A program made the position numbers and the translations under genes. Below, in pieces: positions 1,036 to 31,928 of a stretch of DNA of 57,847 nt. The notes below the pieces were generated by a model. It had not been told where the DNA came from. It ran no database searches and saw only the letters and a program-made list of their open reading frames with translations. Position 1 is the first letter of the stretch; each line of letters opens with the position of its first letter. This DNA comes from Lachnospiraceae bacterium (GTDB lineage Bacteria; Bacillota; Clostridia; Lachnospirales; Lachnospiraceae), in NCBI GenBank assembly GCA_017548765.1, contig JAFYZH010000005.1, positions 1-57,847 of the forward strand. Direction: 5' to 3'.

Positions 1036-1605
1036 ATGATGAAAGACGATGATATCATCGAGTTATACTTCCAACGGAACGAAAGCGCGCTCGTGGAGAC
1101 TTCCGATAAATACGGAAGTTACTGCAGGAGTATAGCCCGCAGAATATTGAATGACGAGGAGACGGCGAAGGAATGCCTGAACGATACTTTGTATCACAGC
1201 TGGAATGCTATCCCTCCGAAACGGCCGAACTGCCTCAAAACCTTCGTAGGCAAGATCGCCCGCAATGTCTCTCTGAAACGCCTGGAGAAAGCACAGGCCG
1301 TGAAACGCGGCGGCGGAGAGGCGGCCATAGCGATCGATGAACTCGAAGAGTGCGTGGCAGACATATCCGTCCGGGAAGCCGAGCAGATCGAGGAGGACAT
1401 GGTCATCCGCGAGGTGCTGGATCAGTTCCTGGCCGGATTGCCTAAGCAAACCCGCCGGGTATTCATGCGTCGCTACTGGTATTGCAGTTCTGTCCATGAG
1501 ATCGCACTCGCTTTCGGCCTGACCGAGAGCAATGTAAAGACAAGCCTTTCTCGAGCCAGAGGTAAACTAAAAGAGGCATTGGAGAAAGCAGGTGTCGTAT
1601 TATGA
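1036..1605 (+). CDS. ECF-like RNA polymerase sigma factor, cassette 1
   Basis: A 189-residue sigma-70 family protein. Region 2 lies at about residues 15-85 (core around SIARRILNDEETAKECLNDTL and the following W, then KIARNVSLKR). Region 4 lies at about 125-182 (FMRRYWYCSSVHEIA, then the recognition helix LTESNVKTSLSRARGKL). It would direct core polymerase to the promoter type seen at 956-997. The start is the first of two adjacent ATGs, behind an AGAAAGGACAGGG stretch. The stop overlaps the next gene by ATGA, so sigma and membrane partner are probably made together. Three close paralogues sit at 2750, 7019 and 18081. The family is clear; the target genes are unknown. Confidence 0.93.
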   Translation: MMKDDDIIELYFQRNESALVETSDKYGSYCRSIARRILNDEETAKECLNDTLYHSWNAIPPKRPNCLKTFVGKIARNVSLKRLEKAQAVKRGGGEAAIAIDELEECVADISVREAEQIEEDMVIREVLDQFLAGLPKQTRRVFMRRYWYCSSVHEIALAFGLTESNVKTSLSRARGKLKEALEKAGVVL

Positions 1606-2552
1606 GTAAAAAGATCGCAAAAAACCGCTTGATGAACCGCATCGGCGAAGTCGATGAGAAGTATGTTCAGGAAGCACAATACACGGAGAAAGAACTTAAA
1701 AACCTGAAACCGGATAAGGTAAGCTCGGCATTGGCCGAAGCAGAACAAATAGCGGGGGAGATCACGGCGGAAGAGCCGGCGATCACGCCCGTAGTAAACA
1801 CGGATCCCGAGATCGAGCAGGAATTCCTGCCGACGAAAAACAACAAGATCATAACGATCGTCCGCATCGCAGTCAGCGTGTCGCTCGTGGCGGCGGCGAT
1901 CCTGCTGTTTGTCTTCTTGTGGAACCCGAATCGCAGCCAGGTCGCCACGACGACGGACGCCACTGAGGCACCCACCGAGACGGAGGCTGAGCCTGACACG
2001 ACGCAGGAGATCACCGAGGCCACTACGGAAGCACCGACCACTGCAGTAGCCGGGGTGAGGATCGACGAGGAGCATTTCCCGGATCCTAACTTCCGGGCAT
2101 TTATCACGAAACACTTCGATACGAACAGAGATAATGCGCTGGACGAGCTCGAGATCCAGAATGCTAAGGAAATCTTTTTCTACACCGATGAAGATGATGG
2201 AACCGGAAGTTCTTGGGTCAATACGCTGGATGGAATCGAGTATTTCACCGCACTGGAAGTGCTTCATTGCGCGGACAATAAACTAACTGCGCTGGATGTC
2301 ACTAAGAATACTGCATTGAAAACGCTGGATATTTCAGGCAACGCTATTACTGAACTCGATCTGAGCCAGAATAAAGCATTGGAAATTCTTGATTGCTCCC
2401 GGAATGATATTCGGGAGGTGGACGTCAGTTCGAATACTTCACTGGAGACGCTTCGCTGCTCTGGTAACCCGTTGGAGGTACTGAATGTGGGACCTCTTCC
2501 CGAAAAGGAATCCTTCTTTTGTGATGTAGATACTTGGCATTTGGAAAAGTGA
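1602..2552 (+). CDS. Membrane LRR protein, putative anti-sigma receptor, cassette 1
   Basis: The 316-residue protein has a cytoplasmic N-terminus (1-82) with VDEKYVQEAQYTEKE, one membrane helix (about 83-107, ending FLWNPN), a Thr/Glu/Ala-rich linker (about 115-150), the cap HFPDPNFRAFI, an EF-hand-like loop (about D173-E184) and four 21-residue LRRs with the cysteine-ladder pattern (LxxLxCxxNxLxxLDVSxN). This is the shortest LRR ectodomain of the array. The ATGA overlap with the sigma gene, and the motif shared with the other three sigma-linked membrane proteins, suggest it holds and releases the sigma factor in response to an outside signal; that role is inferred. No LPXTG is present. A perfect hairpin terminator follows. 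Confidence 0.85.
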   Translation: MSKKIAKNRLMNRIGEVDEKYVQEAQYTEKELKNLKPDKVSSALAEAEQIAGEITAEEPAITPVVNTDPEIEQEFLPTKNNKIITIVRIAVSVSLVAAAILLFVFLWNPNRSQVATTTDATEAPTETEAEPDTTQEITEATTEAPTTAVAGVRIDEEHFPDPNFRAFITKHFDTNRDNALDELEIQNAKEIFFYTDEDDGTGSSWVNTLDGIEYFTALEVLHCADNKLTALDVTKNTALKTLDISGNAITELDLSQNKALEILDCSRNDIREVDVSSNTSLETLRCSGNPLEVLNVGPLPEKESFFCDVDTWHLEK

Positions 2553-2593
2553 AACGATCCGAATTCTAAGCACGATTAAAAGTGATGAATAGC

Positions 2594-2637
2594 AAAATGG
2601 CGAGGTCGGTTGAAAAATCGACCTCGCCATTTTATAC
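2594..2637 (+). terminator. Rho-independent terminator after cassette 1
   Basis: A perfect 15-bp stem (2594-2608 with 2619-2633), loop GTTGAAAAAT, ends in a short T run. The A-tract on the left arm makes it usable from both strands. The loop type and the sequence after it recur in the terminators at 5182 and 6844, showing that terminators were copied along with the cassettes. Confidence 0.9.
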
Positions 2638-2668
2638 TATAAGGGTAATGAACATCCGAAAGTTTTTT

Positions 2669-2710
2669 TGTCCGGTTTCGCACGTAATTCCTGTGTAGAT
2701 AAGTGAAAGG
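2669..2710 (+). promoter_or_regulatory. Probable ECF-type promoter of sigma cassette 2
   Basis: TGTCCGGTTT at 2669-2678, then GTAGATAAGTGAAAGG at 2695-2710. The downstream block is identical over 16 bp to that of cassette 1 and the spacing is the same (26 bp), while the centre of the upstream element differs. Confidence 0.65.
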
Positions 2711-2749
2711 GTTGAAGCTGACCACAAAAAACATGAAAGGATCACGACC

Positions 2750-3319
2750 ATGATGAGGGATGAACAGATCATTGAGTTATACTTCGGACGCGACGAGCGC
2801 GCGCTCGTTGAAACCTCCGATAAATACGGCAACTACTGCCGTAGTATTTCCCGTAGTATTCTGAACGACGAAGAATCGGCAAAGGAGTGCTTTAATGACA
2901 CGCTGTATCATAGTTGGAATGCAATTCCGCCGAAGCGCCCGAACAGCTTGAAAACGTTCGTGGGGAAGATCATCCGAAACCTGTCTTTGAACCGTTTGGA
3001 GAAAGCGCTTGCGAAGAAACGCGGAGGCGGCGAGGCGGAAGTCGCGATCGATGAACTCGTCCAATGTCTGGAAGACAAAACCATTCAGAACGCGGAGCAG
3101 TTGGAGGAAAGCCTGGTGATCCGCGAAGTCATGGACCAGTTCATGGCTGAACTGAAACCGCAGAACCGCCGTATTTTCGTGCGCCGCTACTGGTATTGCA
3201 GTTCAGTGCGGGAGATCGCGGTAGCCATGGGAATGTCCGAGAGCAATGTTGAAAAGAGCCTGTATCGTGTCAGGGGTCAGCTTCGAAAAGCCCTGGAGAA
3301 AGCAGGTGTCGTAGTATGA
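2750..3319 (+). CDS. ECF-like RNA polymerase sigma factor, cassette 2
   Basis: A 189-residue paralogue of the cassette 1 sigma factor, with the same region 2 (SISRSILNDEESAKECFNDT) and region 4 (FVRRYWYCSSVREIAVAMG, then MSESNVEKSLYRVRGQL). The recognition helix differs (VEKSLYRVRGQL against VKTSLSRARGKL), so promoter preference may have shifted slightly, although the promoter blocks are very alike. The start is supported by GAAAGGATC about 8 bases upstream. The stop overlaps the LRR receptor gene by ATGA. It probably works as a pair with that gene. Confidence 0.93.
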   Translation: MMRDEQIIELYFGRDERALVETSDKYGNYCRSISRSILNDEESAKECFNDTLYHSWNAIPPKRPNSLKTFVGKIIRNLSLNRLEKALAKKRGGGEAEVAIDELVQCLEDKTIQNAEQLEESLVIREVMDQFMAELKPQNRRIFVRRYWYCSSVREIAVAMGMSESNVEKSLYRVRGQLRKALEKAGVVV

Positions 3320-5145
3320 GTAAGCGAGAAGATAAGTACATCTTGATGGGTTGGGTCGGCGAGATCGACGATAAGTACATTCGTGAGGCAGAATACACGA
3401 AGCAGGAACAGGCGAACCTGAAAGCGAGCGGTATAAGTGTCGTGGTGGAGAGCACTGCGACATACGCGGGCGAAGCGGCGGATGAGGCGGATGAAGTATT
3501 TGAAGGGGTTGATCCTTCTTTCGATAACGGGGATCCTGCTAATGAAGAGGGAGAGAGAACCGAAAAGAAAAACAAGATCGTTACCTTTGTAGCAGTTGCG
3601 ACGGGCATTTCGCTCGTGGCGGCAGCGATCCTGCTGTTCGTCTTCTTGTGGAACCCGAATCGCAGCCAGGTCGCCACGACGACGGAGGCAGACACGACGC
3701 AGGAGGCCACCGAGGCTCCTGCCGAGACAGAAACTGAGCCGGTCACAACGCAGGAGGTTACGGAAGAAGCGACGGTCGAAGTGTCCGGAATAAGGATCAA
3801 CGAGGAGAATTTCCCGAGTGAGACGTTCCGTAAGTATATCCGAGAAAAATATGACAAGGATGGAGACGGAGCTCTCAGTGAGAAGGAAGTCAGCGTAGAG
3901 CTCGTATTGTACGTGGATGAAATCTGGACTGAGGAGCAGATCGCAAACGGAGAGGTGGACCTTAAGGGACTCGAAGTATTTTCTGCGTTGAGCTATCTCG
4001 ATTGCAAAAATGCGCATTTGGGGAAACTGGATGTTAGTTGTTATCCGAATTTGGAAGTGTTGTACTGCAGCGAAAATGATCTGACGGAGCTTGATCTGAG
4101 CCACAATCCGATATTATCGGAGTTGGATTGCGAAAAAAACAAATTAAAGAAACTTGATCTGAGTCACAATCCTGCTCTGAGATTTCTGAAATGCATGCAA
4201 AACGAGCTGTCCGTGTTGGACGTAAGCCAAAATCCGGAGTTGACATATATCGATTGTTCAGATAACGAATTGGGTTCACTGGATGTGAGTAAAAACCCGA
4301 AGTTGGAGGATCTGATCTGCGGTAGTACCAACCTGATCTCGCTGGATGTGACCTATAATCCGGAGTTATCGTCGTTGTACTGTCCGGGCAATTCTCTTAC
4401 CGAACTGGACGTAAGTCAAAACCCGAATTTGTACTACCTGTTATGCGACGATAATTCTCTGACGAAGTTGGATGTAAGTCATAATCCCGAACTTGGCATC
4501 CTCGGCTGTGTCAAAAATTCTCTGAAGGAACTGAGTGTGAGCCAAAACCCGAACCTGAAAGAATTGCACTGCTCGCAAAACGAGTTGGCAGAGCTGGATG
4601 TCACGAATAATCCGGCGCTGGAATTTCTGGATTGTAACGTTAATAAACTGACTCGACTGGATGTGAGCCAAAACCCGAACCTGAAAGAATTGCGCTGCAC
4701 ACGCAACTACCTGACGGAACTGGATGTCACAAACAATCCGGACCTGGAGAACTTATTATGTTGTCTAAACAGCGCATTGGCTTCGCTGGATGTCAGCCAC
4801 AATGAAAAATTGAAACATCTGGACTGCGCAAAATGTGCTCTGGAAGCATTGAATGTCAGTCAGAATACGGAGCTGTATTTCCTGTACTGTAACCATAACA
4901 GTATTAAAGAACTGGATCTCGGTACGTACACAAATCGGCACCTGGTTCTTATCGACTGTGCCGGTAACCCTTTGACGCAACTGAATGTAAGTAATTTTCC
5001 CGAAGTGCAGGCTATCAGATGCAATAAAGATCTTCCGGTTTTGGGACTGGGAGAGGGATTTGAGGTCGTTCGGGAGGATGCGGGAGAGTCCGGATATGAA
5101 ACGGATTACTATTTTCGGATCAATGCCGGTATAGATTTGAACTAA
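3316..5145 (+). CDS. Membrane LRR protein, putative anti-sigma receptor, cassette 2
   Basis: The 609-residue protein has a cytoplasmic part (1-87) with IDDKYIREAEYTKQE, a membrane helix at about 88-112 (ending FLWNPN), a Thr/Glu linker, the cap NFPSETFRKYI, a canonical EF-hand loop (D180 to E191) and about 16 LRRs of 21 residues, most with the ladder cysteine. Two LRRs (42 residues) are tandemly duplicated: the same 30 bp recurs at 4537 and 4663, exactly 126 bp apart. The DNA for the membrane helix is almost identical to that of the cassette 1 receptor over 77 bp. It overlaps its sigma gene by ATGA. Predicted role: surface sensor controlling that sigma factor (inferred). Confidence 0.87.
   Translation: MSKREDKYILMGWVGEIDDKYIREAEYTKQEQANLKASGISVVVESTATYAGEAADEADEVFEGVDPSFDNGDPANEEGERTEKKNKIVTFVAVATGISLVAAAILLFVFLWNPNRSQVATTTEADTTQEATEAPAETETEPVTTQEVTEEATVEVSGIRINEENFPSETFRKYIREKYDKDGDGALSEKEVSVELVLYVDEIWTEEQIANGEVDLKGLEVFSALSYLDCKNAHLGKLDVSCYPNLEVLYCSENDLTELDLSHNPILSELDCEKNKLKKLDLSHNPALRFLKCMQNELSVLDVSQNPELTYIDCSDNELGSLDVSKNPKLEDLICGSTNLISLDVTYNPELSSLYCPGNSLTELDVSQNPNLYYLLCDDNSLTKLDVSHNPELGILGCVKNSLKELSVSQNPNLKELHCSQNELAELDVTNNPALEFLDCNVNKLTRLDVSQNPNLKELRCTRNYLTELDVTNNPDLENLLCCLNSALASLDVSHNEKLKHLDCAKCALEALNVSQNTELYFLYCNHNSIKELDLGTYTNRHLVLIDCAGNPLTQLNVSNFPEVQAIRCNKDLPVLGLGEGFEVVREDAGESGYETDYYFRINAGIDLN
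4537..4692 (+). repeat. In-frame tandem duplication of two LRRs
   Basis: An identical 30-bp stretch beginning GTGAGCCAAAACCCG occurs at 4537 and 4663, 126 bp apart, which is exactly two 63-bp repeat units. This points to recent in-frame repeat gain inside the receptor gene. Confidence 0.8.
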
Positions 5146-5181
5146 AGATTTTATTAAAAATTTAACGAGTTCCTCATGATT

Positions 5182-5217
5182 CGACGGGTTCGGTTAAAAA
5201 ACGAACCCGTCGTTTTA
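5182..5217 (+). terminator. Rho-independent terminator after cassette 2
   Basis: An 11-bp stem CGACGGGTTCG / CGAACCCGTCG (5182-5192 with 5202-5212), with an A-rich loop and a TTTTAT tail. Confidence 0.88.
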
Positions 5218-5323
5218 TACCAATAGTGTCCCGCCTGAAAATACTGTATTGACCGTTCGATTTTTTTATCCTCACGAAGAGATCACGATCCTCCCTACGA
5301 TTAAAAGAGATCGCCCACGTTTA

Positions 5324-5339
5324 TTCAAGTTAACTTGAA
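5324..5339. promoter_or_regulatory. 16-bp perfect palindrome upstream of LRR gene
   Basis: TTCAAGTTAACTTGAA is a perfect 16-bp inverted repeat, about 90 bp before the chosen start of the next gene. It has the size of a dimeric repressor site. No clear sigma-A promoter is visible around it. Function inferred only from symmetry. Confidence 0.45.
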
Positions 5340-5426
5340 AGGATAAGCCTGCCGCACTATGATTAGCATATGGAAAGCATATGCGGGCGCAGAAGCGACC
5401 CGATCGAGAAAGGGATGAATAGCAAC

Positions 5427-6767
5427 ATGACGGATAATAAGATCATTAAGAGGGAACACGCATGGATGAAGGATCCGAGTAACAGTCGGTTTTTATTTCG
5501 CCGGCACCCGTGGTTAGGGGTGGTTTTGCTCCTGACGGCAGCGGTTCTGCTCGTTATCCAATACCAGTACTGGTGGCGTTTCACTCCCGCGGAGATCAAC
5601 GAGAAGAACTTCCCGGATGAACTGTTTCGTGAGTATGTACAAAGGTTTGATGCGGACAGAGATGGGACACTGGGCAGAGCCGAACTGAAAGCAGTGACGG
5701 AGATCGAGATAGCTGATGAGATAGACTCTTCGGATAAGTTCAATGTCAAAGTGATACGAAGTGTTACCAGCTTAAAAGGCATAGAGTATTTTTTGAACTT
5801 GGAATCACTGTTTTGTGACGGCTGTGAAGATCTACATCAACTGGATCTAAGCAAAAACCGTTCGCTAAAGGAACTGGCCTGCATCCGTACCGGGGTGACG
5901 ACGTTGGACGTGAGTCATAACAAGGAATTGACGACCCTTGCTTTCACAAATGTTTCTTCCTCTATTTTTGAGAGAGGCAATCTGACAGAACTGGATGTAA
6001 GTAAAAACAAAAAACTTGAGTATTTATGGTGCGCAGCGGAAAGACTTACGACCCTGGATGTAAGTAAAAACAAGGCTTTGACGACACTGAACTGTGCGGA
6101 TAATTATCTGACGGAGTTGGATGTCAGCCGAAACAAAGCGCTACAGGAGCTCGATTGTGGGGGCAATCAATTGGCCGCGATCGACGTGAGTAAGAACCCC
6201 AACCTGTCTACGCTAGATTGCAGTGAAAACCAATTGACTTCCATCGATGTGAGTAGGAACTCGCATCTGTCGATGCTTGAGTGCGAAAAAAATCAGTTGA
6301 CTGTGATCGATGTGGGTCAGAACCCGGAGCTGCTTAAACTTTTCTGTAATGAGAATCGATTGACGTCGATCGATGTGAGCCAAAACACTGTTTTGGAAAC
6401 CCTTTACTGCGGTCATAACGCGATCGATGAACTGGATGTAAGCCGGAACGTTCAGTTGGTGAACCTTGATTGCGACTACACTTTGTTGAGGGAACTGGAT
6501 GTAAAACAGAACCCCAAGTTGGAGGATCTGAGTTGCGAATACATCGGCCTCTCCAAACTGGACATCAGTGAGAACTCCAATCTGGAGTATCTCAGTTATC
6601 GCGGAAACAAATTCCGGACGATCGTTGTCAACAAGCATCCGTACATGAAGCGGATCTTATGCGATGATCCGTCGATGGTCATGGGAGCGAACCGAAACTG
6701 CAAGGTCCTGACCATGACGGAATATGAAAAGAAAGAAGCCGCAGAAGAGAGTGCGTCGACGACGTAA
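5427..6767 (+). CDS. Signal-anchored LRR surface protein without sigma partner
   Basis: About 446 residues. An N-terminal cytoplasmic stub is followed by one helix (WLGVVLLLTAAVLLVI), an EF-hand loop (D75 to E86, DADRDG) and about 13 LRRs of 21 residues, many ending IDVSxN. The sigma-linked motif (DxxYxxEA) is absent and no sigma gene precedes it, so it is probably an accessory surface LRR protein. The start is uncertain: ATGs at 5370, 5415 and 5427 are in frame. AGAAAGGG at 5407-5414 best fits 5427, although the spacing is long. A 16-bp palindrome lies upstream and a terminator follows. Confidence 0.8.
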   Translation: MTDNKIIKREHAWMKDPSNSRFLFRRHPWLGVVLLLTAAVLLVIQYQYWWRFTPAEINEKNFPDELFREYVQRFDADRDGTLGRAELKAVTEIEIADEIDSSDKFNVKVIRSVTSLKGIEYFLNLESLFCDGCEDLHQLDLSKNRSLKELACIRTGVTTLDVSHNKELTTLAFTNVSSSIFERGNLTELDVSKNKKLEYLWCAAERLTTLDVSKNKALTTLNCADNYLTELDVSRNKALQELDCGGNQLAAIDVSKNPNLSTLDCSENQLTSIDVSRNSHLSMLECEKNQLTVIDVGQNPELLKLFCNENRLTSIDVSQNTVLETLYCGHNAIDELDVSRNVQLVNLDCDYTLLRELDVKQNPKLEDLSCEYIGLSKLDISENSNLEYLSYRGNKFRTIVVNKHPYMKRILCDDPSMVMGANRNCKVLTMTEYEKKEAAEESASTT

Positions 6768-6843
6768 GTATAGAGAGTTCGGTGCGCGGGATCGCGGTGA
6801 AACTTACGAAGAAATAAAAATTTATTACAGTTTAATTAATTTT

Positions 6844-6880
6844 TGGCGGGGACGGTTGTAAAATCGCCCCCGCCATTATA
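6844..6880 (+). terminator. Rho-independent terminator after LRR gene
   Basis: Stem TGGCGGGG (6844-6851) / CCCCGCCA (6868-6875) extends inward by two more pairs across one mismatch, with loop GTTGTAAAAT. The loop and the following TATATGCTATAAT stretch resemble the terminator at 2594. Confidence 0.8.
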
Positions 6881-6922
6881 TGCTATAATAGTCCTGAATG
6901 TACGAGAAAAAAATTTCAGGCT

Positions 6923-6963
6923 TGTAACCTTTTTATCGGGATTAGTACTATATAGGTGAGAGG
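6923..6963 (+). promoter_or_regulatory. Probable ECF-type promoter of sigma cassette 3
   Basis: TGTAACCTTT at 6923-6932 is identical to the element of cassette 1. CTATATAGGTGAGAGG follows at 6948-6963, spaced 25 bp start to start. An extended -10-like TGCTATAAT also lies at 6881-6889. Confidence 0.65.
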
Positions 6964-7018
6964 CTGATGAAACATATGCTGCCGGCTCGCAGATCATGCA
7001 TTTGAAGGGGATTTGGCA

Positions 7019-7588
7019 ATGATGCAAGACGAACAGATCATCGATCTATATTTTCTAAGGGATGAAAATGCTCTCACCGAGACGACGGATAAGTACGGCA
7101 ACTACTGCCGGACTATCGCGCGTAACATCGTGCACGACGAGGAGACGGTGAAAGAGTGCTTCAACGATACGCTCTTTCACAGTTGGAACTCCATGCCTCC
7201 GCAGCGCCCGAACTGCCTTAAGGCTTTTTTAGGCAGAATTACGCGCAACATTTCATTGAAGCGGATCACGGCGCTCACCGCGCTCAAACGCGGCGGCGGC
7301 GAGGTGGTGCTGGCTCTCGACGAGTTGGGAGAATGTGTCTCGGATAACTCCGCGTACAGCACGGAGCAGTTCGAGGAAGACATGGCGATCCACGAGACCT
7401 TGAAGACTTTTCTGGCAGGGCTCCCCGTCCAGACCCGTCGCATTTTCGTGCGTCGCTACTGGTATTGCAGCTCGATCCAGGAGATCGCGACCGCCATGGC
7501 TCTGTCCGAGGGCAATGTTAAGACCACATTATCCCGCGGGCGCAACAAGCTAAAGGCACTATTAGAGAAAGCAGGTATAACGGTATGA
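7019..7588 (+). CDS. ECF-like RNA polymerase sigma factor, cassette 3
   Basis: A 189-residue sigma factor: region 2 (IARNIVHDEETVKECFNDTL, W, ITRNISLKR) and region 4 (FVRRYWYCSSIQEIATAMA, LSEGNVKTTLSRGRNKL). I take the ATG at 7019, matching the MMxDxxII start of the paralogues, with GAAGGGGAT at 7004-7012 as ribosome site; a TTG two codons earlier is less likely. It overlaps the receptor gene at 7585 by ATGA. It probably heads a four-gene operon of sigma, receptor, lipoprotein LRR and long anchored LRR (7019-12659), whose gaps are only 28 and 55 bp. Confidence 0.93.
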   Translation: MMQDEQIIDLYFLRDENALTETTDKYGNYCRTIARNIVHDEETVKECFNDTLFHSWNSMPPQRPNCLKAFLGRITRNISLKRITALTALKRGGGEVVLALDELGECVSDNSAYSTEQFEEDMAIHETLKTFLAGLPVQTRRIFVRRYWYCSSIQEIATAMALSEGNVKTTLSRGRNKLKALLEKAGITV

Positions 7589-8748
7589 GTAAGCTCACGA
7601 AAGAACGCCTGCTGACTCTCTTTAGCGGCATCGACGACGAATATATCGTCGAAGCTGAGTATACCGAAGAAGAGCGTGCCCGCCTGACAGTAGCTGCCAG
7701 AGCAGCCACCGCGATCGCGAAAGAGGCCGAAGAGACTTCACAGCAGCAAACATCGACCCGAAACACGGACGAAGAGGATAAAATAATCGACGAGGAACTG
7801 CAGACCAAACCGGAGGCGCTCCCGAAGAATACGGCAGCTAAGATCATACGCATCACGTTTGGGGCTATGCTCGCGGCAGCGGCGCTCCTCGCACTGGTGC
7901 TCCTCTGGAACCCGGACTGGAGCGATGTTGCATCGACCACGAGCTCGGCAGAGCAGGAGGCGACAACTCCGGAGGATACAACAACGGAGGACTTTATAGA
8001 TGAAAAGGACCTCGCAGAAGTGCCAATCGACAGCGAGCATTTTCCGGATGCTCTGTTTAAGGAGTTCATCAGTGCCCGGTATGACAGCAACAAAGATGGG
8101 ATACTGGATCCGGCTGAGATCCTGGCTGTAAAAGAGATCCGTTTGTACAAAGCTGATGGCTCAGCCATGGAGATAGAGGATTTGAGTGGAGTCGAATACT
8201 TTCCGGCTCTGAAAGTGCTCGAGTGTCCGATATACGAATTGACCCGGTTGGATGTCAGCAAGAACACATTTCTCAGGGAGTTGAACTGTTCGTCTTCCCA
8301 ACTGACTGAGTTGGACGTCAGCAAGAACACGGCACTGAGAAAATTGAATTGTGGATCTACCTATATTTCCGAACTGGATCTGAGTTACGCTCCTGCGTTG
8401 GAAGAACTGGATGTTTCTTATGATCCGATGAACGCGATCGACCTCAGCCATAATCCTGCGCTTAGACACCTCACCGTCAGTTACACTCCGATGCTCGAAT
8501 TGGATATTACGCAAAACGCTGCACTGGAAGAACTGTTTGTTATGGGGATACAGAGTACGCAGATCGATATCAGCAGGAACACTGCCTTGAAGAATATCGT
8601 CGCTACGGCATCTAAACTGGAACGACTGGATATCAGTAATAATCAGGCGTTGGAGTCTGTGGTCGTAAATACGACAACGACCGTAACCGGCGCTAATGGA
8701 AGAGAAAGCATTATCGAAAGGATAAAAATACCGAACCCGCAGAGGTAG
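7585..8748 (+). CDS. Membrane LRR protein, putative anti-sigma receptor, cassette 3
   Basis: The 387-residue protein has a cytoplasmic part (1-85) with IDDEYIVEAEYTEEE, a membrane helix at about 86-108 (ending LLWNPD), an acidic linker, a canonical EF-hand (D167 to E178, DSNKDG) and seven to eight LRRs. Only the first three repeats keep the ladder cysteine; later ones have V or A in its place. The C-terminal cap (VVVNTTTTVTGANGRE) matches the end of the next gene (VFVNPKTIVTGVDGRE), and the two ectodomains align repeat by repeat, so the lipoprotein at 8777 is a duplicate of this ectodomain without the sigma-binding part. It overlaps its sigma gene by ATGA. Confidence 0.87.
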   Translation: MSKLTKERLLTLFSGIDDEYIVEAEYTEEERARLTVAARAATAIAKEAEETSQQQTSTRNTDEEDKIIDEELQTKPEALPKNTAAKIIRITFGAMLAAAALLALVLLWNPDWSDVASTTSSAEQEATTPEDTTTEDFIDEKDLAEVPIDSEHFPDALFKEFISARYDSNKDGILDPAEILAVKEIRLYKADGSAMEIEDLSGVEYFPALKVLECPIYELTRLDVSKNTFLRELNCSSSQLTELDVSKNTALRKLNCGSTYISELDLSYAPALEELDVSYDPMNAIDLSHNPALRHLTVSYTPMLELDITQNAALEELFVMGIQSTQIDISRNTALKNIVATASKLERLDISNNQALESVVVNTTTTVTGANGRESIIERIKIPNPQR

Positions 8749-8776
8749 AGAAAATAATAATTGGAGGGATGTTAGT

Positions 8777-9922
8777 ATGAAGAAAAAAGGACTGTCGCTT
8801 TTGGCGGCTTCAACACTCATGTTGGTTTCATTTGGATGTACCAATGTTAACACGCTGTCGGAAACGACTGCAAAAGAAACCGTGGAAACGGCGGAGTATA
8901 CGACCGCTGAAACGCCTGCAGAGACGGACGCTCCTACGGAGGTTGAACCTTCGACGGAGATCGAAACCACGGAGGTTGAGTTCTCGACTGAACTCAAAAC
9001 TACGGAAGTCGAGAGCACCGAAGAGGTAACCACGGCAGAGCCCGAGACCACGGAGGAGGAAACGACTTCAGAGCCTGCGACCGAGACGGAAGAGACATCG
9101 TCGGAAGCATCAACAGAGGAGCCGGAAACTGCAGAAGAGACGAACGCGGAAGAAACTACGGAGGCGCAGACCGAGGAAGATACGGAAACCATCGCGATCG
9201 ACGACGAGCATTTTCCGGATGGGGTATTCCGCAAGTATGTCAGCATGTACTGTGATACCAATAAGGACGGCGTGCTGGACGAAGACGAGCTTCTGAATGT
9301 GAAGGAGCTCCGCCTGTATAATCAGGTCGGAAAATCCTGGGAAGTGACCGATCTGACCGGCATCGAATACTTCACGGCTTTGGAAGTGCTCGAATGTATG
9401 GAGAATAAACTGACGCAGCTGGATGTGAGCCGCAACACTGCACTGGTGGAACTGGACTGCTCGAATTCCAGAATGACGAGCCTGGATGTCAGCAAGAATA
9501 CGGCGCTGAAGCGTCTGGCGTGTGAATACACCTACATTTCCGAGTTGGATGTGAGTCAAAATACCGCATTGGAAGAGCTGGATGTTTTCAGTACACAGTT
9601 AACTAAGATCGACGTGACGAACAATCTGGCCCTGAAGAAACTCGATATCAGCTATACGAAGATACCTGAAGTGGATATCACGAAAAATGCCGCTCTGGAG
9701 GTGCTGGTGGCAATGGGCACCATGATCCCTCAGTTCGATACCTCCTGCAATCCCGAACTCATAACGATCATTGCTTCCGCATCGAAACTGGAGCAACTGG
9801 ATCTTCAATACAATCAGAAGTTACAAGATGTATTCGTTAATCCGAAGACGATCGTGACCGGCGTCGACGGAAGGGAAGACATAGTTACTGTGATCGATGT
9901 CCGCTATGCCGGGGAGACGTAA
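8777..9922 (+). CDS. LRR lipoprotein on a long Thr/Glu stalk
   Basis: The 381-residue protein starts with a lipoprotein signal (basic MKKK, hydrophobic core, SFGC with the modified Cys at 21). A stalk of about 115 residues made almost only of Thr, Glu, Ser, Ala and Pro follows, then the HFPDGVFRKYV cap, an EF-hand (D160 to E171, DTNKDG) and seven to eight LRRs equivalent one-for-one to those of the receptor at 7585. It begins 28 bp after that receptor behind GGAGGGATG. It is probably outer-leaflet anchored and could compete for, or present, the ligand of the paired receptor; that is speculation. The stalk would span a thick wall. Confidence 0.85.
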   Translation: MKKKGLSLLAASTLMLVSFGCTNVNTLSETTAKETVETAEYTTAETPAETDAPTEVEPSTEIETTEVEFSTELKTTEVESTEEVTTAEPETTEEETTSEPATETEETSSEASTEEPETAEETNAEETTEAQTEEDTETIAIDDEHFPDGVFRKYVSMYCDTNKDGVLDEDELLNVKELRLYNQVGKSWEVTDLTGIEYFTALEVLECMENKLTQLDVSRNTALVELDCSNSRMTSLDVSKNTALKRLACEYTYISELDVSQNTALEELDVFSTQLTKIDVTNNLALKKLDISYTKIPEVDITKNAALEVLVAMGTMIPQFDTSCNPELITIIASASKLEQLDLQYNQKLQDVFVNPKTIVTGVDGREDIVTVIDVRYAGET

Positions 9923-12757: not shown

Positions 12758-12797
12758 AAAAAGACTTCCATCAACTCAGCCACCGGGCCGGCGAATA

Positions 12798-12826: not shown

Positions 12827-12868
12827 GTAAGCAGAACTATTTTTGATCTACAATGTAAGGAAGCAATA

Positions 12869-15352: not shown

Positions 15353-15393
15353 CCGATATATATCAAAGCATCCGTTTCGGATCTGGGAGGAAA

Positions 15394-17940
15394 ATGATGA
15401 GAAAAAGACTATTTGCAATTATGGCTATGGGAACTCTGGTGCTTGCGGCCGGAGGCTGTAAGGGCGATACAGAACCGACATCTGAGGTCAGTGTGACGCA
15501 GCCGTCGAAGCCGCCACTCGATGACGCACCGGTGAAGATCGACGGGGAGGCATTTCCGGATGAGATTTTCAGAGAATATATCCGTGAGAATTTCGATAAA
15601 AACGGAGACGGTCAGTTGAGCGTTTCTGAACGCGGAGCGGTGGATGAAATATACGCGATCCACCGGGGATTTGAAGACGTAAAAGGTATAGAACTCTTTT
15701 ATGACCTGAAGTCGATATACTTTGACAGTAATAATTTAACGACACTGGACGTAAGCCAAAACAAAGGTCTGGAACGGATCAGCTGCACAGGCAATCAGTT
15801 GAAAAACCTGGATGTGAGCGATAATCCGAAACTGATCTCCCTGAGATGCGAAATGAATAGTTTGACCAAACTGGATGTCTCTCAGAACCCTGAACTTTCG
15901 TCGCTGTCCTGCGATGGCAACGATCTTATGTCCCTGGATGTCAGCAACAACCCTAAATTGGTTTGGCTAGAATGCAGCGAAACAAAAATAACTGCGTTGG
16001 ATCTCAGCAAAAATCCCGAATTGCATACTTTCAACTGCCATAAATGTAAATTGAGTTCCCTGGACGTCAGCAACAATCCAAAACTTTTTTCATTGAATTG
16101 CTCCGATAACGGTTTAACCGAACTGATCTTGGGCGAAAAACCGGAATTGATGATGTTAAACTGTGAGAGGAACCAAATAAAGGCGATCGATGTAAGCAGG
16201 GCTCCGCAACTGGTAGAGTTTTCATGTTCGGCTAACGATCTTTCAAGCCTGGATGTCAGCAACAATCCGGTGCTTTACAGTTTGTCATGCGGAGAGAACC
16301 ATTTGCAGACTTTGGATATAAGTCGGAATACGGCGCTGACCAAACTGTATTGCCCGGGTAATCCTCTGACCGCTTTGGATGCGCGCAACAACCCGAAACT
16401 GACGAGCTGTATTTGCGATGAAAGTGTTATCGTGGAGTACGCGATAAACGAGATCGATCCCAATATACTTTATGAGATCGATGAGAAGAATTTTCCGGAT
16501 GCCGCCGTCAGGAACTATCTTCGTTCCTACGTGGACGATGATGGAAACGGAGTGCTCGACGATTCGGAAATCCAAAAAGTGGAATATATCAAGGATGACG
16601 CGATCTGGGATGAGAAAGATAGGGAAAATGGCTCTGTGAACCTGAAAGGGCTGGAAATATTCACGTCGCTCACCGATTTGAGGCTTGAATCGCTGGGACT
16701 GGAAGAGCTGGACTTGAGTAGTTTCACGAAACTGGAGTCCTTGTATTGCAAATGTAACCGGCTCACGAAACTGGACGTAAGTCATAATCCCGAATTGGAG
16801 TGGGTGGAGTGTTCGGAGAATAACTTGACGGAACTGGATGTAAGTCATAATCCCAAACTGAAGGCTTTGCTCTGCAGAAAGAATGATCTGACAACTTTGG
16901 ATTTGAGTAATAATCCGAAATTGTGGTGGTTGGAGTATGAAGGAAAGGGCCTTAAGAAACTCGACCTGACGCATAATCCGGATATGGACTATTTGGAATG
17001 TGTTTGTGACGATCTGACTGACATTGACCTCGGTGAGAAAACAGCCTTAGGCTATCTGGATCTTCGTGGAAGCGGCTTGACAACGCTGGATCTGCGCCCG
17101 GCTTCCGAGTTATCGAATCTTTCTCTGTATTGTGACAACCTGACGAAACTGCTGATCAGTTCGACGGAATTGACCGACCTCAAATTACAGTGTGCAGAGC
17201 TTACGATGCGGGATATGAAGCAATTTCCGGAGTTGTGTACATTATGGATCCTGAATAATAAACTGGAATCCTTAGATCTGAGTAATAACCTGAAGCTGAC
17301 TACGCTCGTGGTCTGCGAAACGCAGTTGAAGGAACTGAATGTCAGTGACCTGCGTTCGTTATCCCACCTGATCCTTCGGTCGAATAAACTGTCTGAACTA
17401 GATGTGCGCGAGAACCATCGTCTGGAAGAGCTGATCTGTTACGGCAACCAACTGTCGAGTATCGATCTTCAATACTGTGTCAACCTCAAAAGCTTTATCT
17501 CCGATCCCGAAGTGGATGTTTCCGGAGATGAGCGGGTTTTGTATTCGTACAGATATGGCGGAGAGTCTTTATTCAAAGACGACGCATCCGGCATGTTGCA
17601 GCTGGAAGATGGCGAGTATCGTTTTACCAGCGCTTCACATTACAGGGTCGTAACCGATGGGTTCAAAGAGGAGTATGATATCAAAATAGAAGACGGAGTG
17701 CTTTTGATCGATGGTGCGCTCCATATCGTGAAAAACGACGAGAAGAAGTTTGTCTTGGAGTGTAAGCGCGAAGGAGTAAAACTTAAGCTCGCCCCTGATG
17801 TGAAGATCACCATAACGGGGCACGAGGCCAGCGTTGAAAAATTCAACTCGGAAAATGCATACTCCGTGGCGGATGAGGGTGTCATCTTGAAGATCAAAAA
17901 CGGTCTGGTGACGGAGATCGTTGAAAAGTCTCTGACCTGA
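15394..17940 (+). CDS. Long LRR lipoprotein with C-terminal domain, copy 3
   Basis: Start taken at 15394 because GGGAGG lies just upstream and the protein then begins with a textbook lipoprotein signal ending LAAGGC (Cys 22); an ATG at 15298 would extend it by 32 non-signal residues overlapping the previous gene. The mature 848-residue chain has two modules: EF-hand D68-E79 (DKNGDG) with about 11 LRRs, and EF-hand near 381 (DDDGNG) with about 15 LRRs, then the C-terminal domain (about 728-848) also seen in 9978 and 12869. It is the lipid-anchored version of those two. A run of short repeats near 17100-17170 is degenerate. Confidence 0.85.
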   Translation: MMRKRLFAIMAMGTLVLAAGGCKGDTEPTSEVSVTQPSKPPLDDAPVKIDGEAFPDEIFREYIRENFDKNGDGQLSVSERGAVDEIYAIHRGFEDVKGIELFYDLKSIYFDSNNLTTLDVSQNKGLERISCTGNQLKNLDVSDNPKLISLRCEMNSLTKLDVSQNPELSSLSCDGNDLMSLDVSNNPKLVWLECSETKITALDLSKNPELHTFNCHKCKLSSLDVSNNPKLFSLNCSDNGLTELILGEKPELMMLNCERNQIKAIDVSRAPQLVEFSCSANDLSSLDVSNNPVLYSLSCGENHLQTLDISRNTALTKLYCPGNPLTALDARNNPKLTSCICDESVIVEYAINEIDPNILYEIDEKNFPDAAVRNYLRSYVDDDGNGVLDDSEIQKVEYIKDDAIWDEKDRENGSVNLKGLEIFTSLTDLRLESLGLEELDLSSFTKLESLYCKCNRLTKLDVSHNPELEWVECSENNLTELDVSHNPKLKALLCRKNDLTTLDLSNNPKLWWLEYEGKGLKKLDLTHNPDMDYLECVCDDLTDIDLGEKTALGYLDLRGSGLTTLDLRPASELSNLSLYCDNLTKLLISSTELTDLKLQCAELTMRDMKQFPELCTLWILNNKLESLDLSNNLKLTTLVVCETQLKELNVSDLRSLSHLILRSNKLSELDVRENHRLEELICYGNQLSSIDLQYCVNLKSFISDPEVDVSGDERVLYSYRYGGESLFKDDASGMLQLEDGEYRFTSASHYRVVTDGFKEEYDIKIEDGVLLIDGALHIVKNDEKKFVLECKREGVKLKLAPDVKITITGHEASVEKFNSENAYSVADEGVILKIKNGLVTEIVEKSLT

Positions 17941-17996
17941 TCGTCGCTTTCCGTATAAGGTTTCATTCAACCCGGAATAAAAAAATGAAAAAATGT

Positions 17997-18038
17997 TGTA
18001 AGGTTTCCTCCGAAAAATCGTAATAGGACAATGAAAGG
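17997..18038 (+). promoter_or_regulatory. Probable ECF-type promoter of sigma cassette 4
   Basis: TGTAAGGTTT at 17997-18006, then ATAGGACAATGAAAGG at 18023-18038, again 26 bp start to start. It is the most diverged of the four copies but keeps TGT...TTT and TGAAAGG. Confidence 0.6.
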
Positions 18039-18080
18039 CTTATTACTTGCGGTTCAGACCGCAAAGGAAGGTGGATTGCT

Positions 18081-18650
18081 ATGATGCAAGATGGAAAGAT
18101 CATCGATTTATACTTCGAGCGTGATGAACGCGCTCTGGTGGAAGCCTCCGACAAATATGGGACGTATTGCCGAAGCATTGCCCGCAATATCTTGAATGAC
18201 CGGGAGACGGCGAAGGAGTGCTTCAACGATACTTTGTATCAGAGCTGGATGATCATCCCGCCGAACCGTCCGAACAGTTTGAAGGTTTTCCTGGGGAATA
18301 TAGCCCGCAACCTGTCGCTGAAGCGATGGGAGAGGGATCATGCCCAAAAGAGGGGCGGCATGGAAGCGTCGCTGGCCATCGATGAACTGGGCGAATGCGT
18401 GGCGGACCCGTCGGCACGCAACGCCGAGCAGATCGAGGATGAGATCGTGATCTGCGAGATCCTCGAAAAATTTCTCGCGGGCCTGACCGTGCAAAACCGC
18501 CGTATCTTCATGCGGAGATACTGGTACTGCAGTTCCATCAAAGAGATCTCTACAGCCCTCGGTCTGTCCGAGAGCAATGTTATGACAAGCCTTTCTCGTG
18601 TAAGAAGCAAGTTGAGAGATGCACTTGAGAAAGAAGGTGTCGTATTATGA
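18081..18650 (+). CDS. ECF-like RNA polymerase sigma factor, cassette 4
   Basis: A 189-residue sigma factor like the other three: region 2 (SIARNILNDRETAKECFNDTL, W, NIARNLSLKR) and region 4 (FMRRYWYCSSIKEISTALG, LSESNVMTSLSRVRSKL). The ribosome site AAGGAAGGTGG precedes the ATG at 18081. The stop overlaps the receptor gene by ATGA. No clear terminator separates it from the LRR lipoprotein upstream, so some read-through is possible, but it has its own conserved promoter. Confidence 0.93.
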   Translation: MMQDGKIIDLYFERDERALVEASDKYGTYCRSIARNILNDRETAKECFNDTLYQSWMIIPPNRPNSLKVFLGNIARNLSLKRWERDHAQKRGGMEASLAIDELGECVADPSARNAEQIEDEIVICEILEKFLAGLTVQNRRIFMRRYWYCSSIKEISTALGLSESNVMTSLSRVRSKLRDALEKEGVVL

Positions 18651-21181
18651 GTAAGAGAGACGGAAGACTTCATTTGATGGAATTACTCGGCCGGGCGGGG
18701 GAGAAATATGTCCTGGAGGCCGAATATTCGGAGCAGGAGCTGGCGAAACTGAAGGCGAGCGGAGCGGGCGTTCCGGTGGGCGCTGAGATAAGCGGGGCAT
18801 CCGAAAACGCTGAGATGGCGGGATGGCCGGCTTTCGGCGCGGACCAGGGCGAGACGGACCCGAAGGAAGATGTTGATTCGACGCCGAAGGTGGAAAAGAT
18901 ACCTGTCGTAAGAATTATTATGGGTGTGGCTCTCGTTGCAGCAGCGATCCTTTTAGTCGTATTTTTCTGGCATCCGGATCGCACGGACGTTATTTCGACC
19001 ACGGAGTCAAGCGTTGAGGAGACGACAACGGACGATGGAACGTTGAAGATCGACGAGGCGCATTTCCCGGATACGTATTTCCGGGAATATATTCAGTCGC
19101 AATTTGATGCGAACGAAGATGGTATTCTCGATGAAGGCGAGATCGCAAGCGTTAAGGAGATAGATCTGGACACCTACGAGGCCAGGACCTCGATACGGAG
19201 CCTGGCGGGAATAGAGTATCTGACGAAGTTGGAGCGGCTTGTTTGTCCGGCATTCGTTACAGAACTGGATGTGAGTAAGAACGAAGCACTTAGGTCGCTC
19301 AGCTGTCGTCACGGCAGTCTGCACGCTCTGGATGTGAGCGCGAATACGAGACTGACGGAACTGGACTGCAGTGGCAACGATCTGGGAACGCTGGATGTCA
19401 GCAAGAATGTCTCTCTGGTAACGCTTCGCTGTTCGGGCTGCGGTCTGACCGAGCTGGACGTTCGCAACAATCGGGCTTTAGTAACCCTGGTTTGCAATGA
19501 TAATGATCTGGAGTCGCTGGATGTCAGAAACAACCGTGTGCTGACCGAGTTGAACTTCGCTAACAATCATATCTCCGAGATCGATCTCAGCCAAAATAGT
19601 TTGCTTTCCTCGCTGTACTGCAAGGGCAACACCTTGGAGACGCTGGATGTCAGAAATAGCCCTCAATTAATCGCTGTAACGTGTGATCCTATGGTTCTCG
19701 TGGGGCGCTCAGATGACGAACTTGAGCATGTAAGAGTCTCCGAACGCAACTTCCCGGATGGACCTCTGTGGGAGACCTTGACTATCTATGACAGAGACAA
19801 TAATGGAGAACTGGACGAGAGTGAGATCGCCGAGGTTAAGACACTGGATCTGATGAGAGCGTATGATATGCTTAACGTATCATCAGAATCGCTTCGTTTC
19901 CTGACAGCGGTGGAAGAAGTCTACTGGCAGCATGGAGAAATCGATCCGAAGGTATTGTCATACTTCCCGAAGTTGAAAGTTCTGGACTGCTCATTCAGTG
20001 GTATCAGTTCGTTGGATCTAAGCTCCTTTACGGAACTGGAAGAACTGTGTTGCGTCAACTGCAATCTTTCACAACTGGATGTGAGCCGGAATACGAAACT
20101 TCAGATCCTCTACTGCGAAGGAAATCCGTTGACCTCCTTGAATGTCAGCCAAAATGAGGCTTTGACATATCTGGTCTGTGATCCCGATGTGGAAGTTGTC
20201 GGTATGCGTGACGTGCCGCAGAAAGACGAGGAAAATGCGATCCCTATAGATGTAGCGCATTTTCCAGACAGGTTTATTCGAAAATATGTTACGGAAAATG
20301 TGGATGCTGACCATGACGGTGTGCTGGACAGCAAAGAACTACAAAGCGTCACGGAACTGACTGTGGAGGATCGGTACACCTACACCCTGAAGGGAATCGA
20401 ATACTTTACAAATTTGCAGTCGCTGGTCTGCAATAACCTTGTATTGTCGTCTTTGGACGTGAGTAAAAATCCTGAGCTAAAGCATCTGGATTGTACACAA
20501 TGCGGTTTGCAAGCGTTGGATGTCAGCCACAATCCTTTGTTGGAAGAATTGAATTGTTATTCCAATAAGCTGACGGATCTGGATGTGAGCCGGAATCCTG
20601 CCTTAAAGGAACTGTATTGTCATTCCAATCCGCTGACGGATCTGGATGTGAGCCGCAATCCGGCGCTGGAAACTCTGGTAGTAGCTTCAGACCAATTGAC
20701 AACGCTGGATGTAAGTCACAATCCGAGGATGAAAACCCTGGCGGTTGAAGCTTCTTGCCTGGCTGAACTGGATGTGAGTCAGAATCCGATGCTAGAAGAA
20801 CTATCGGTCGACTCCGATATATTAGTCAAACTGGATGTAAGTTGTAATACGGCTTTGAAAGGTCTGGGTGTCCGGGCCGAGAACCTGACCGAGCTGAATG
20901 TCAGCCACAACGAGCTTTTGGAAATGTTGTATTGTATATATTGCTCTCTGACCGAACTGGACGTTAGCCACAACCCGGCATTAGCGGAGTTAAACTGCAC
21001 GTCAAATGCATTGACCTCGCTGGATGTGAGCCATAATCCTCTGTTGGTGTACTTGAGTTGTAATGTTAACCCTCTTGAGACGCTGGATTTGAGAGCAAAT
21101 CCGGAACTGACCACCCTCATAGTGGATGACAACGTCGATGTAATCGGCGCGAGGGAGGACTGCATCATCTTCCCGGCGTGA
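18647..21181 (+). CDS. Large membrane LRR protein, putative anti-sigma receptor, cassette 4
   Basis: At 844 residues this is the largest sigma-linked receptor. The cytoplasmic part (1-85) carries AGEKYVLEAEYSEQE; the helix is at about 86-108 (ending FFWHPD). Outside are three EF-hand plus LRR modules: D154-E165 with about 8 LRRs, 382 onward (DRDNNG) with about 5, and 553 onward (DADHDG) with about 12. Each module ends in a CDPxV-type cap. A 63-bp in-frame duplication of one LRR is visible (the same 22 bp starting at 20570 and 20633). It overlaps its sigma gene by ATGA. Predicted surface sensor for that sigma factor (inferred). Confidence 0.87.
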   Translation: MSKRDGRLHLMELLGRAGEKYVLEAEYSEQELAKLKASGAGVPVGAEISGASENAEMAGWPAFGADQGETDPKEDVDSTPKVEKIPVVRIIMGVALVAAAILLVVFFWHPDRTDVISTTESSVEETTTDDGTLKIDEAHFPDTYFREYIQSQFDANEDGILDEGEIASVKEIDLDTYEARTSIRSLAGIEYLTKLERLVCPAFVTELDVSKNEALRSLSCRHGSLHALDVSANTRLTELDCSGNDLGTLDVSKNVSLVTLRCSGCGLTELDVRNNRALVTLVCNDNDLESLDVRNNRVLTELNFANNHISEIDLSQNSLLSSLYCKGNTLETLDVRNSPQLIAVTCDPMVLVGRSDDELEHVRVSERNFPDGPLWETLTIYDRDNNGELDESEIAEVKTLDLMRAYDMLNVSSESLRFLTAVEEVYWQHGEIDPKVLSYFPKLKVLDCSFSGISSLDLSSFTELEELCCVNCNLSQLDVSRNTKLQILYCEGNPLTSLNVSQNEALTYLVCDPDVEVVGMRDVPQKDEENAIPIDVAHFPDRFIRKYVTENVDADHDGVLDSKELQSVTELTVEDRYTYTLKGIEYFTNLQSLVCNNLVLSSLDVSKNPELKHLDCTQCGLQALDVSHNPLLEELNCYSNKLTDLDVSRNPALKELYCHSNPLTDLDVSRNPALETLVVASDQLTTLDVSHNPRMKTLAVEASCLAELDVSQNPMLEELSVDSDILVKLDVSCNTALKGLGVRAENLTELNVSHNELLEMLYCIYCSLTELDVSHNPALAELNCTSNALTSLDVSHNPLLVYLSCNVNPLETLDLRANPELTTLIVDDNVDVIGAREDCIIFPA
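20570..20655 (+). repeat. 63-bp in-frame LRR duplication
   Basis: CTGACGGATCTGGATGTGAG recurs at 20570 and 20633, exactly one 63-bp LRR apart, followed by similar sequence. It indicates recent gain of one repeat. Confidence 0.7.
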
Positions 21182-31917: not shown

Positions 31918-31928
31918 GGAGTGAAAAC

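Follow-up and report, generated by a model that had tools for sequence, protein, structure and literature searches.

Four genes for extracytoplasmic function (ECF) sigma factors, each overlapping the gene of a single-pass membrane receptor by ATGA (4/4), form an array at positions 1036-21181 of a contig from a Lachnospiraceae bacterium. This contig (C26, 57,847 bases, one of 106 in a genome of 2.6 Mb) was analyzed whole and is called the window here. Each cassette is quite probably a self-contained surface signalling unit in which the receptor serves as a minimal membrane anti-sigma factor. A short N-terminal motif would dock on region 4 of the co-translated sigma and hold it at the membrane, and a leucine-rich repeat (LRR) ectodomain, set on a Thr-rich stalk behind one transmembrane (TM) helix, would be the sensor. 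A sequence-only reading of the window had located four such pairs, placed five further LRR proteins without the cytoplasmic part between them, and suggested that each receptor controls its own sigma. The pairs and all four ATGA overlaps were found again, and coordinates and motif absence agree for the five LRR proteins. The receptor can well be taken as the partner of its own sigma because the genes overlap in one operon, sigma region 4.1 covaries with the motif, the two are fused into one chain in some genomes, and the promoters are sigma-specific; control itself is a further step, which we infer. Architecture, pairing, promoters, both covariations, fusion and swapping are read from the sequences. 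In the following, S1-S4 are the window sigmas, R1-R4 their receptors, and L1-L5 the window LRR proteins without the motif; three-digit L numbers (e.g. L070) denote sigma/receptor loci and are distinct from L1-L5.

The window sigmas (S1, 1036-1605; S2, 2750-3319; S3, 7019-7588; S4, 18081-18650; all array features with coordinates lie on the forward strand) are each 189 aa long. All four match TIGR02937 (59-76 bits vs a cut-off of 42.9) and Sigma70_r4_2 above cut-off, and two of the four also match Sigma70_r2. By these profiles, with only the sigma2 and sigma4 regions present and the ECF model matched, they fit the ECF class (group IV); no subfamily cut-off was reached among the best 25 NCBIfam matches listed per window sigma. 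The start of S3 is taken as the ATG at 7019, which agrees with the aligned starts; the list of open reading frames (ORFs) has a TTG at 7013. The receptors are R1 (1602-2552, motif LMNRIGEVDEKYVQEAQY, with an EF-hand-like cap and a short LRR domain), R2 (3316-5145, with a long LRR ectodomain), R3 (7585-8748) and R4 (18647-21181, with the longest). In each the order is cytoplasmic motif, TM helix, Thr-rich stalk, EF-hand-like cap and Cys-ladder LRR domain. The motif and a clear hydrophobic stretch were found in all four, as expected of the single-pass protein with a shared cytoplasmic motif that had been described. The EF-hand plus LRR ectodomain held in part: Pfam LRR matches are above cut-off in R1-R4, the EF-hand only in R4. 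A strict repeat regular expression finds 3, 15, 4 and 20 LRRs in R1-R4, a low count compatible with the 4, ~16, 7-8 and ~24 repeats given before.

A profile from ten sigmas of the own genome gave 12 matches there, one of them fused to a receptor, and 12, 9, 5, 7 and 4 in five sister genomes of the genus, one split G001 gene being counted twice; rumen origin is given for three of the five. Locus L074 (G001:C63) holds a family sigma whose coding sequence is divided between two frames, with a receptor behind it. The sigma profile found a match in 18 of 41 genomes, at least one in 61 of 150 genomes of the wider family (60 of 149 genera), and likewise at least one in 7 of 119 genomes of a phylum sample, each count including the own genome. 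The sequence-only reading had named the regular occurrence of these membrane proteins without sigma genes as evidence against it. A profile of the receptor N-terminus, run on the six genus genomes, gave 36 matches at E <1e-20, and 36/36 abut a sigma 3' end, in one case that of the split sigma G001:C63; among these strong matches the objection is not borne out. Most of the twelve weaker matches (E 9e-6 to 0.01) cover the TM part alone, and three of the twelve lie at or near sigmas (G001:C54, which is fused, G003:C35 and G007:C49).

The sigma set holds 156 non-identical sigmas from all loci taken, 3 fused to a receptor and 153 unfused. A motif-bearing ORF stands behind 146 of the 153: within -80 to +150 nucleotides (nt) in 141, at exactly -4 in 116 of these, and 168-332 nt downstream in five more. 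Those at L118, L178, L182, L183 and L189, all in one genome (G150), show no overlap. Among the seven exceptions, L160 and L203 end at a contig edge, L061 has no motif protein, L043 has a serpin-like gene next (with a weak receptor match in the genome ~1.5 kb behind the sigma), and L197, L207 and L208 have only motif candidates under the threshold. Seven new loci came from the phylum sample; the receptor is at -4 in six, and the seventh (L222) ends at the contig. By these counts the pair of sigma and motif receptor, with changing ectodomains, is widespread in Lachnospiraceae.

The cytoplasmic motif (consensus LMDAMGEIDDKYIKEAEY, ~18 residues in 18 columns) scores at least 8.2 in real receptors against a 99% shuffle level of -2.6. 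A clear hydrophobic stretch is present in 98.6% of motif proteins, and the most hydrophobic segment starts at a median of residue 49 (5th percentile, 34). In the window receptors the motif is not covered by any Pfam or NCBIfam match. The Pfam census took in 137 of 141 motif receptors (those of at least 150 aa), 33 from the core group and 104 from more distant sigmas, 7 of the latter in genus genomes, and tallied no domain for the motif; the NCBIfam census, of the 104 only, likewise tallied none. The pattern suggests two short helices around a G-x-I-D turn.

Covariation between sigma and motif was analyzed in 141 pairs, region 4.1 being located by the Sigma70_r4_2 match at 126-178 and an alignment to SigW. 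Against 60 permutations, five column pairs (sigma/motif) score above the 95% level of the permuted maximum. Two of them, 133/11 and 140/14, lie in region 4.1; the other three, 151/17, 112/17 and 113/3, have lower z. Ranked by z, past one degenerate pair, 140/14, 133/11, 129/11, 96/1, 141/14 and 133/10 lead. Low-entropy column pairs such as 124/12 (z 199 with a tiny corrected mutual information) were distrusted. Glu or Asp stands at motif position 14 in 107 of the 126 pairs that have Arg or Lys at sigma 140, against 0 of the 15 others (p 3e-11), and among the 56 of the 141 pairs charged at both 133 and 10 the charges are opposite in 50 and like in 6. In the 107 pairs of more distant sigmas no other of the 207 position pairs shows a charge swap as strong as 133/10 (47 to 5), and a mirror-tree correlation there is weak (r 0.28 vs a null of at most 0.09). 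Among 48 sequences below 50% identity both links persist (140/14, p 0.003; small 133 with aromatic 11, p 0.001). The signal is centered on sigma 129-141, with weaker links at 96/99, 150 and 177, and supports a contact of the receptor motif with sigma region 4.1.

The same partners are found in a single chain. Proteins comprising sigma, motif, TM helix and LRRs are encoded in three genomes (L067-L069: the own genome, contig C2, L067; G001; and G005) as open frames of 569-592 aa, and are under purifying selection, with a ratio of nonsynonymous to synonymous substitution (dN/dS) of 0.25-0.32, the largest dS being near saturation. Two LRR genes precede the fused gene in each of the three, and none of the three fused loci has a family promoter above threshold.

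A characteristic promoter lies upstream of many sigmas, of the form TGTAA-[CG]-N-TTT, 15-16 nt, [CG]TANATA-RGTGAAAGGC. When the window was scanned with a position weight matrix (PWM), four sites and no more scored above 14 bits on the two strands (0.15 expected per strand); each sigma has one of them, 80-96 nt ahead of its start. These are TGTAACCTTT-N16-GTAGATAAGTGAAAGGC before S1 (956-998), TGTCCGGTTT-N16-GTAGATAAGTGAAAGGG before S2 (2669-2711), TGTAACCTTT-N15-CTATATAGGTGAGAGGC before S3 (6923-6964) and, as a probable promoter with a weak -10, TGTAAGGTTT-N16-ATAGGACAATGAAAGGC before S4 (17997-18039). The four sites also come out on top when a genus PWM is trained with the own genome excluded (41.8, 37.1, 33.4 and 18.8 bits; S1 has 41.8, S2 33.4 and S4 18.8), the highest of 50 shuffled windows reaching 19.1 bits; with a PWM from the more distant sigmas the S1-S3 sites remain first. 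The -35 is TGTAAC for S1 and S3, with the variants TGTCCG for S2 and TGTAAG for S4, the latter as in other M168 sigmas. An AAC-type -35 promoter upstream fits putative ECF autoregulation. In six genomes the strict pattern has 30 matches, 20 of them before a sigma, vs 0 for the reversed pattern. A scan of the 156 sigmas, blind to -35 bases 6-10 but not to other positions, placed a promoter above the 99% shuffle level before 97, with 1.6 expected. Standard sigma70 and terminator scans were at chance (27 vs 23.3 and 22 vs 18.2); hairpins with T-rich stretches after them, which the scan did not list, were seen by eye behind R1, R2 and L3.

Promoter sequence follows the sigma. When all variable sigma columns were tested, residue 168 was best for -35 bases 6 and 7 (z 26, 21), residue 169 for -35 bases 3 and 4 (z 14, 11), and residue 69 for the first -10 base (z 14). 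Lys or Arg at 168 goes with C at -35 base 6 in 48 of 49, other residues in 1 of 48; K168 goes with CC (31/38), R168 with CA (10/11) and M or L168 with GG (11/11), while T69 goes with G (32/33) and A69 with C (32/40) as first -10 base. At the main site 95 of 97 sigmas agree, against at most 67 in 10,000 shuffles, and 29/29 do so in the core group. The rule persists below 50% identity (18/19 vs 0/11, p 2e-7). The tree has 192 branches, with 9 residue switches and 10 base switches; the two coincide on 7 branches. The window sigmas read K168 T169/T69 (S1), E168 K169/T69 (S2), K168 T169/A69 (S3) and M168 T169/V69 (S4), with four different promoters; S1, S3 and the -35 of S4 agree with well-sampled rules. 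Because residues 168/169 in sigma4 and 69 in sigma2 change together with the sigma's own promoter, the paralogous sigmas would be insulated from each other. That ECF promoters are predictable from such residues is already described in passages of PMC8103513; what is added here, from sequence comparison, is the table of residues and bases for this family and its use inside one array.

Freed sigmas would also transcribe a small set of surface or secreted proteins with promoters of the type TGTAA-N5-N15/16-[CG]TANATA. In the own genome, sites away from sigmas lie before a solute-binding lipoprotein (SBP_bac_1), a BACON/Listeria-Bacteroides-repeat protein, two proteins sharing a block (one with immunoglobulin (Ig)-like domains), a protein with a signal-like start and a membrane protein; signal sequences were judged by eye, and two sites on contig C64 come from the PWM, not the strict pattern. 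A block GAGGICTWCAFTNLLNR is shared by L112 and L066:8255-9889 behind family promoters; it looks cysteine-peptidase-like by eye, and the L112 protein has no Pfam match. Within the array, S3 likely drives L2 and L3 as well because the gaps are only 28 and 55 nt. L2 (8777-9922; lipoprotein-like, lipobox by eye) begins 28 nt after R3 and is 54% identical over 237 aa to its ectodomain, so that a free copy of the R3 sensor, perhaps a decoy or co-receptor, would be made alongside. L3 (9978-12659; TM by eye) begins 55 nt after L2. L1, L4 and L5 were rejected as regulon members, as no family promoter precedes them.

The ectodomains behave as exchangeable parts. S1 is 95% identical to its orthologs, with dN/dS of 0.04-0.07, while the R1 ectodomain is only 40% identical (BLAST) to that of the ortholog L014 (54% over 202 gapped columns including the stalk). 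The best match to the R1 ectodomain, at 68.5% over 165 aa, is the ectodomain of the receptor at L021, where the sigma shares 68% identity with S1. Synonymous divergence between window and orthologs is 0.45-0.53 for the sigma and 2.6 or saturated for the ectodomain. Among L014, L015 and L016 of sister species it is lower in the R1 ectodomain (0.03-0.04) than in the sigma (0.10-0.14), as if the ectodomain had recently been transferred among three sister species. One ortholog differs by 127 LRR residues. A clear swap was scored when the best sigma partner was at least 85% identical and another ectodomain, whose sigma was below 80%, was at least 15 points closer or the sole match. This holds for 6 of the 33 core receptors (31 of 33 rows inspected); a looser label, 'discordant', applies to 23 of 33. 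Sensor swapping is thus visible in action, the sigma conserved and the ectodomain replaced, and by these comparisons sensors are swapped between cassettes on a conserved chassis during evolution.

Pfam LRR matches occur in 23 of 33 core receptors and DUF6273 in 8; none of the 104 receptors of more distant sigmas has a Pfam LRR match. Among those 104 are 9 serpins, 3 with DUF4179, 2 with DUF3298 and 1 beta-propeller, and others have VWA or Ig-like domains; most have no known domain. The serpin receptors, taken as a BLAST group (L047, L133, L142, L143, L147, L154, L168, L199 and L202, of which only L142 was Pfam-scanned by name), are candidate protease sensors wired to an ECF sigma. Two of the 104 match RsiV behind the motif (E 1.3e-51 and 1.9e-50), starting at residue 36-41, with 172-176 bits, below the 250-bit equivalog cut-off. 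On this census the sigma/receptor chassis is general to Lachnospiraceae and takes several interchangeable ectodomains, of which the LRR is one. The swapped ectodomains and the four different promoters fit a reading of the array, reasonable though predicted, as a repertoire of receptors for putative surface ligands.

The proposed cycle goes on from the membrane-held sigma. A change of ligand on the LRR would free it; the probable route is regulated intramembrane proteolysis of the kind known from RsiV, RsiP and RsgI, in which a signal peptidase-like cut would be followed by an RseP-like one. The freed sigma would transcribe its own operon, giving positive feedback, and the receptors would diversify by swapping and lengthening the ectodomain on the conserved chassis. 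Inhibition, the direction of signalling, proteolysis and the ligands, including that these would differ between receptors, are inferred; the inhibition is argued by analogy, since class I anti-sigma domains are far longer than the motif, which matches nothing in Pfam or NCBIfam. The RsiV-type ectodomains give the best outside argument that the chassis is an anti-sigma. The own genome encodes a site-2-type protease of the M50 family. A wider reading, which we hold with only a little more belief than doubt, is that of plug-in sigma receptors: one motif and TM helix as a socket, swapped ectodomains and a private promoter per sigma, the LRR repertoire of the genus resembling innate immunity and one member being a single membrane-tethered sigma-LRR protein.

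Several observations weigh against the anti-sigma unit. M50 proteases are found in all 14 control genomes, so the match in the own genome gives weak support. The motif could activate the sigma or only tether it. Tree-based joint switches are modestly enriched (nominal p 0.011 and 0.034), the 133/11 link fades among 26 sequences below 45% identity (p 0.098), and three of the five column pairs above threshold (151/17, 112/17 and 113/3) lie outside region 4.1 and fit less neatly. With the PWM from the more distant sigmas the S2 site (17.1 bits) falls inside the shuffle range, and the S4 site, with its poor -10, is at chance level (11.9 bits). The code does not independently predict all of the S2 and S4 promoters, because S2 is the sole sigma with E168 and no clear base goes with V69. 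Three of the 12 own-genome sigmas (on C64 and C22, and the fused one on C2) have no such promoter.

The point on activation touches an alternative that shares most of this evidence. Some FecR-like regulators act as carriers or co-activators of their sigma, and the receptor might likewise deliver or stabilize the sigma instead of inhibiting it. The coupling evidence applies equally, and the fused chain is under purifying selection, which would not be required of an inhibitor that must be destroyed. However, the best covarying sigma residues lie in region 4.1, near the RNA-polymerase-binding face, which known anti-sigmas block. Binding of anti-sigma helices to sigma4 is described in passages of PMC7406223. 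Together with the RsiV-type ectodomains on the same chassis, which point to anti-sigma function, this makes a carrier unlikely in our view.

The LRR membrane proteins could also be cargo only, the sigma regulating itself and co-expressing a surface adhesin that it never contacts; overlap of the two genes behind the sigma's own promoter, the five motif-less LRR proteins inside the array and the best NCBIfam match, to InlJ-like LRRs, which are surface proteins, would all suit this. Cargo would hardly keep a cytoplasmic motif constant while its ectodomains change completely, and that motif shows covariation with sigma region 4.1, forms one chain with sigma in three genomes and carries RsiV-type ectodomains; this explanation we rate as quite unlikely. 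Still more doubtful, to the point of being very improbable, is that the array is a contingency or decay locus in which LRR genes recombine and most cassettes are silent or broken. Contigs do end inside such genes (window base 1 and C8), a sister-genome sigma is split over two frames (G001:C63), and repeat numbers change; yet S1-S4 and R1-R4 all have open, intact frames, S1 orthologs have the low dN/dS given above, and the promoters are conserved and agree with the code. The reading of the receptor as a membrane anti-sigma is kept.

The array extends beyond the first sigma. Positions 1-891, open from base 1, encode the tail (TM and ectodomain) of a fifth receptor that is cut by the contig start and has a non-LRR ectodomain. 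Its similarity to DUF6281 is weak (Pfam, E 0.0016, under cut-off). At L070 in a sister species a complete cassette stands ~5 kb upstream of the S1/R1 ortholog, and the receptor of that cassette shares 57% identity with the tail over 301 aa. By this comparison the array begins before 1036, and the sigma of the fifth receptor is beyond the contig end. The earlier count of four cassettes is thus right for complete ones in the window and too low for the locus and for the genome, with its 12 sigma matches. The remaining LRR proteins, like L2 and L3 without the cytoplasmic motif, are L1 (5370-6767, start possibly 5415; TM by eye), whose ectodomain resembles those of R2 and R4, L4 (12869-15352; TM by eye) and the lipoprotein-like L5 (15298-17940; start 15397 assumed in some comparisons).

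Behind the array, 82 nt after S4-R4, 21264-23981 encode a histidine kinase, with a 7TMR-DISM match below cut-off, and a response regulator with a Trans_reg_C domain. The stretch 24157-41394 encodes two giant proteins (2586 and 2802 aa), of which the larger carries dockerin and InlB-B-type repeats. A subtilase encoded there too has, by eye, a TM-like segment at its C-terminus. Giant proteins with a similar start are also found in L070 and L081, both of which hold S1/R1 orthologs.

If the proposed mechanism is true, LRR ectodomains, and serpins in relatives, would join the sensors wired directly to bacterial transcription, and a compact candidate anti-sigma motif would be recognizable in uncharacterized Lachnospiraceae genes. 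The natural triples of sigma, promoter and receptor, with readable specificity residues, could be used as orthogonal genetic switches, and the receptors would offer a handle on what gut bacteria sense at their surface. Among the literature titles listed (for one query the best 10 of 2,314), from a library with few subscription journals, none concerned anti-sigmas with LRR or serpin ectodomains, so that the absence is weak.

Parts of the cassette resemble known systems. The LRR domains, with repeats of ~21 aa and a Cys ladder, recall internalin J, and InlJ is the best NCBIfam match for R1-R4 and L5 (L3 and L5 being the two of the five motif-less proteins included in family scans). Membership was rejected (best 286 bits vs the NF033187 cut-off of 1700), and InlJ is not known to go with a cytoplasmic motif or a sigma. 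Like the cassettes here, class I anti-sigmas (RsiW/SigW, 5wuq; RseA/SigE) are described in passages of PMC7406223 and PMC5358783 as membrane anti-sigmas behind an ECF sigma; among solved sigmas, SigW scores best with the family profile (E 1.7e-6). Class I domains average 101 aa according to a passage of PMC7406223, and those below 50 aa were left out of that classification. Class I was rejected here, as the conserved part has 18 columns vs ~50 aa and R1-R4 have no N-terminal domain match. SigV/RsiV and the DUF4179 anti-sigmas (ECF30) likewise pair an ECF sigma with a bitopic anti-sigma in Firmicutes (passages of PMC6066255, PMC8844934 and PMC5014341), and RsiV is described as both anti-sigma and lysozyme receptor (PMC6066255, PMC8844934). 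The window receptors have no DUF3298 or DUF4179 match, and RsiV has no LRR; membership was rejected because Pfam and NCBIfam scans gave no RsiV or DUF3298 match.

SigI is not an ECF sigma, the RsgI sensors bind carbohydrate, and the RsgI N-terminal domain belongs to another family. By comparison the window sigmas are short ECF sigmas, the cytoplasmic motif is different and much smaller, and the sensors are LRRs. No RsgI domain was found in Pfam scans of R1-R4 (E up to 1) or in the tallies of the 33 and 104 receptors, and with ECF partner sigmas RsgI membership was rejected. The likeness lies elsewhere: passages of PMC4711584 describe for SigI/RsgI of Clostridium thermocellum several paralogous pairs of sigma and membrane anti-sigma per genome, sensing of outside substrates, and sigma-specific promoters including the sigma's own, and RsgI is cleaved by RseP according to a passage of PMC12203970. 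By this analogy the cassettes come closest, in their logic, to SigI/RsgI. CnrY lacks an LRR, and its response to metals is mediated by other proteins. In the class II pair CnrH/CnrY, according to a passage of PMC7406223, the cytoplasmic portion of the anti-sigma is very short and consists of two helices, and one of these binds sigma4. The comparison is one of architecture, the fold of the receptor motif being predicted from its pattern only, and by analogy it makes CnrY the nearest mechanical model for the receptors of this array.

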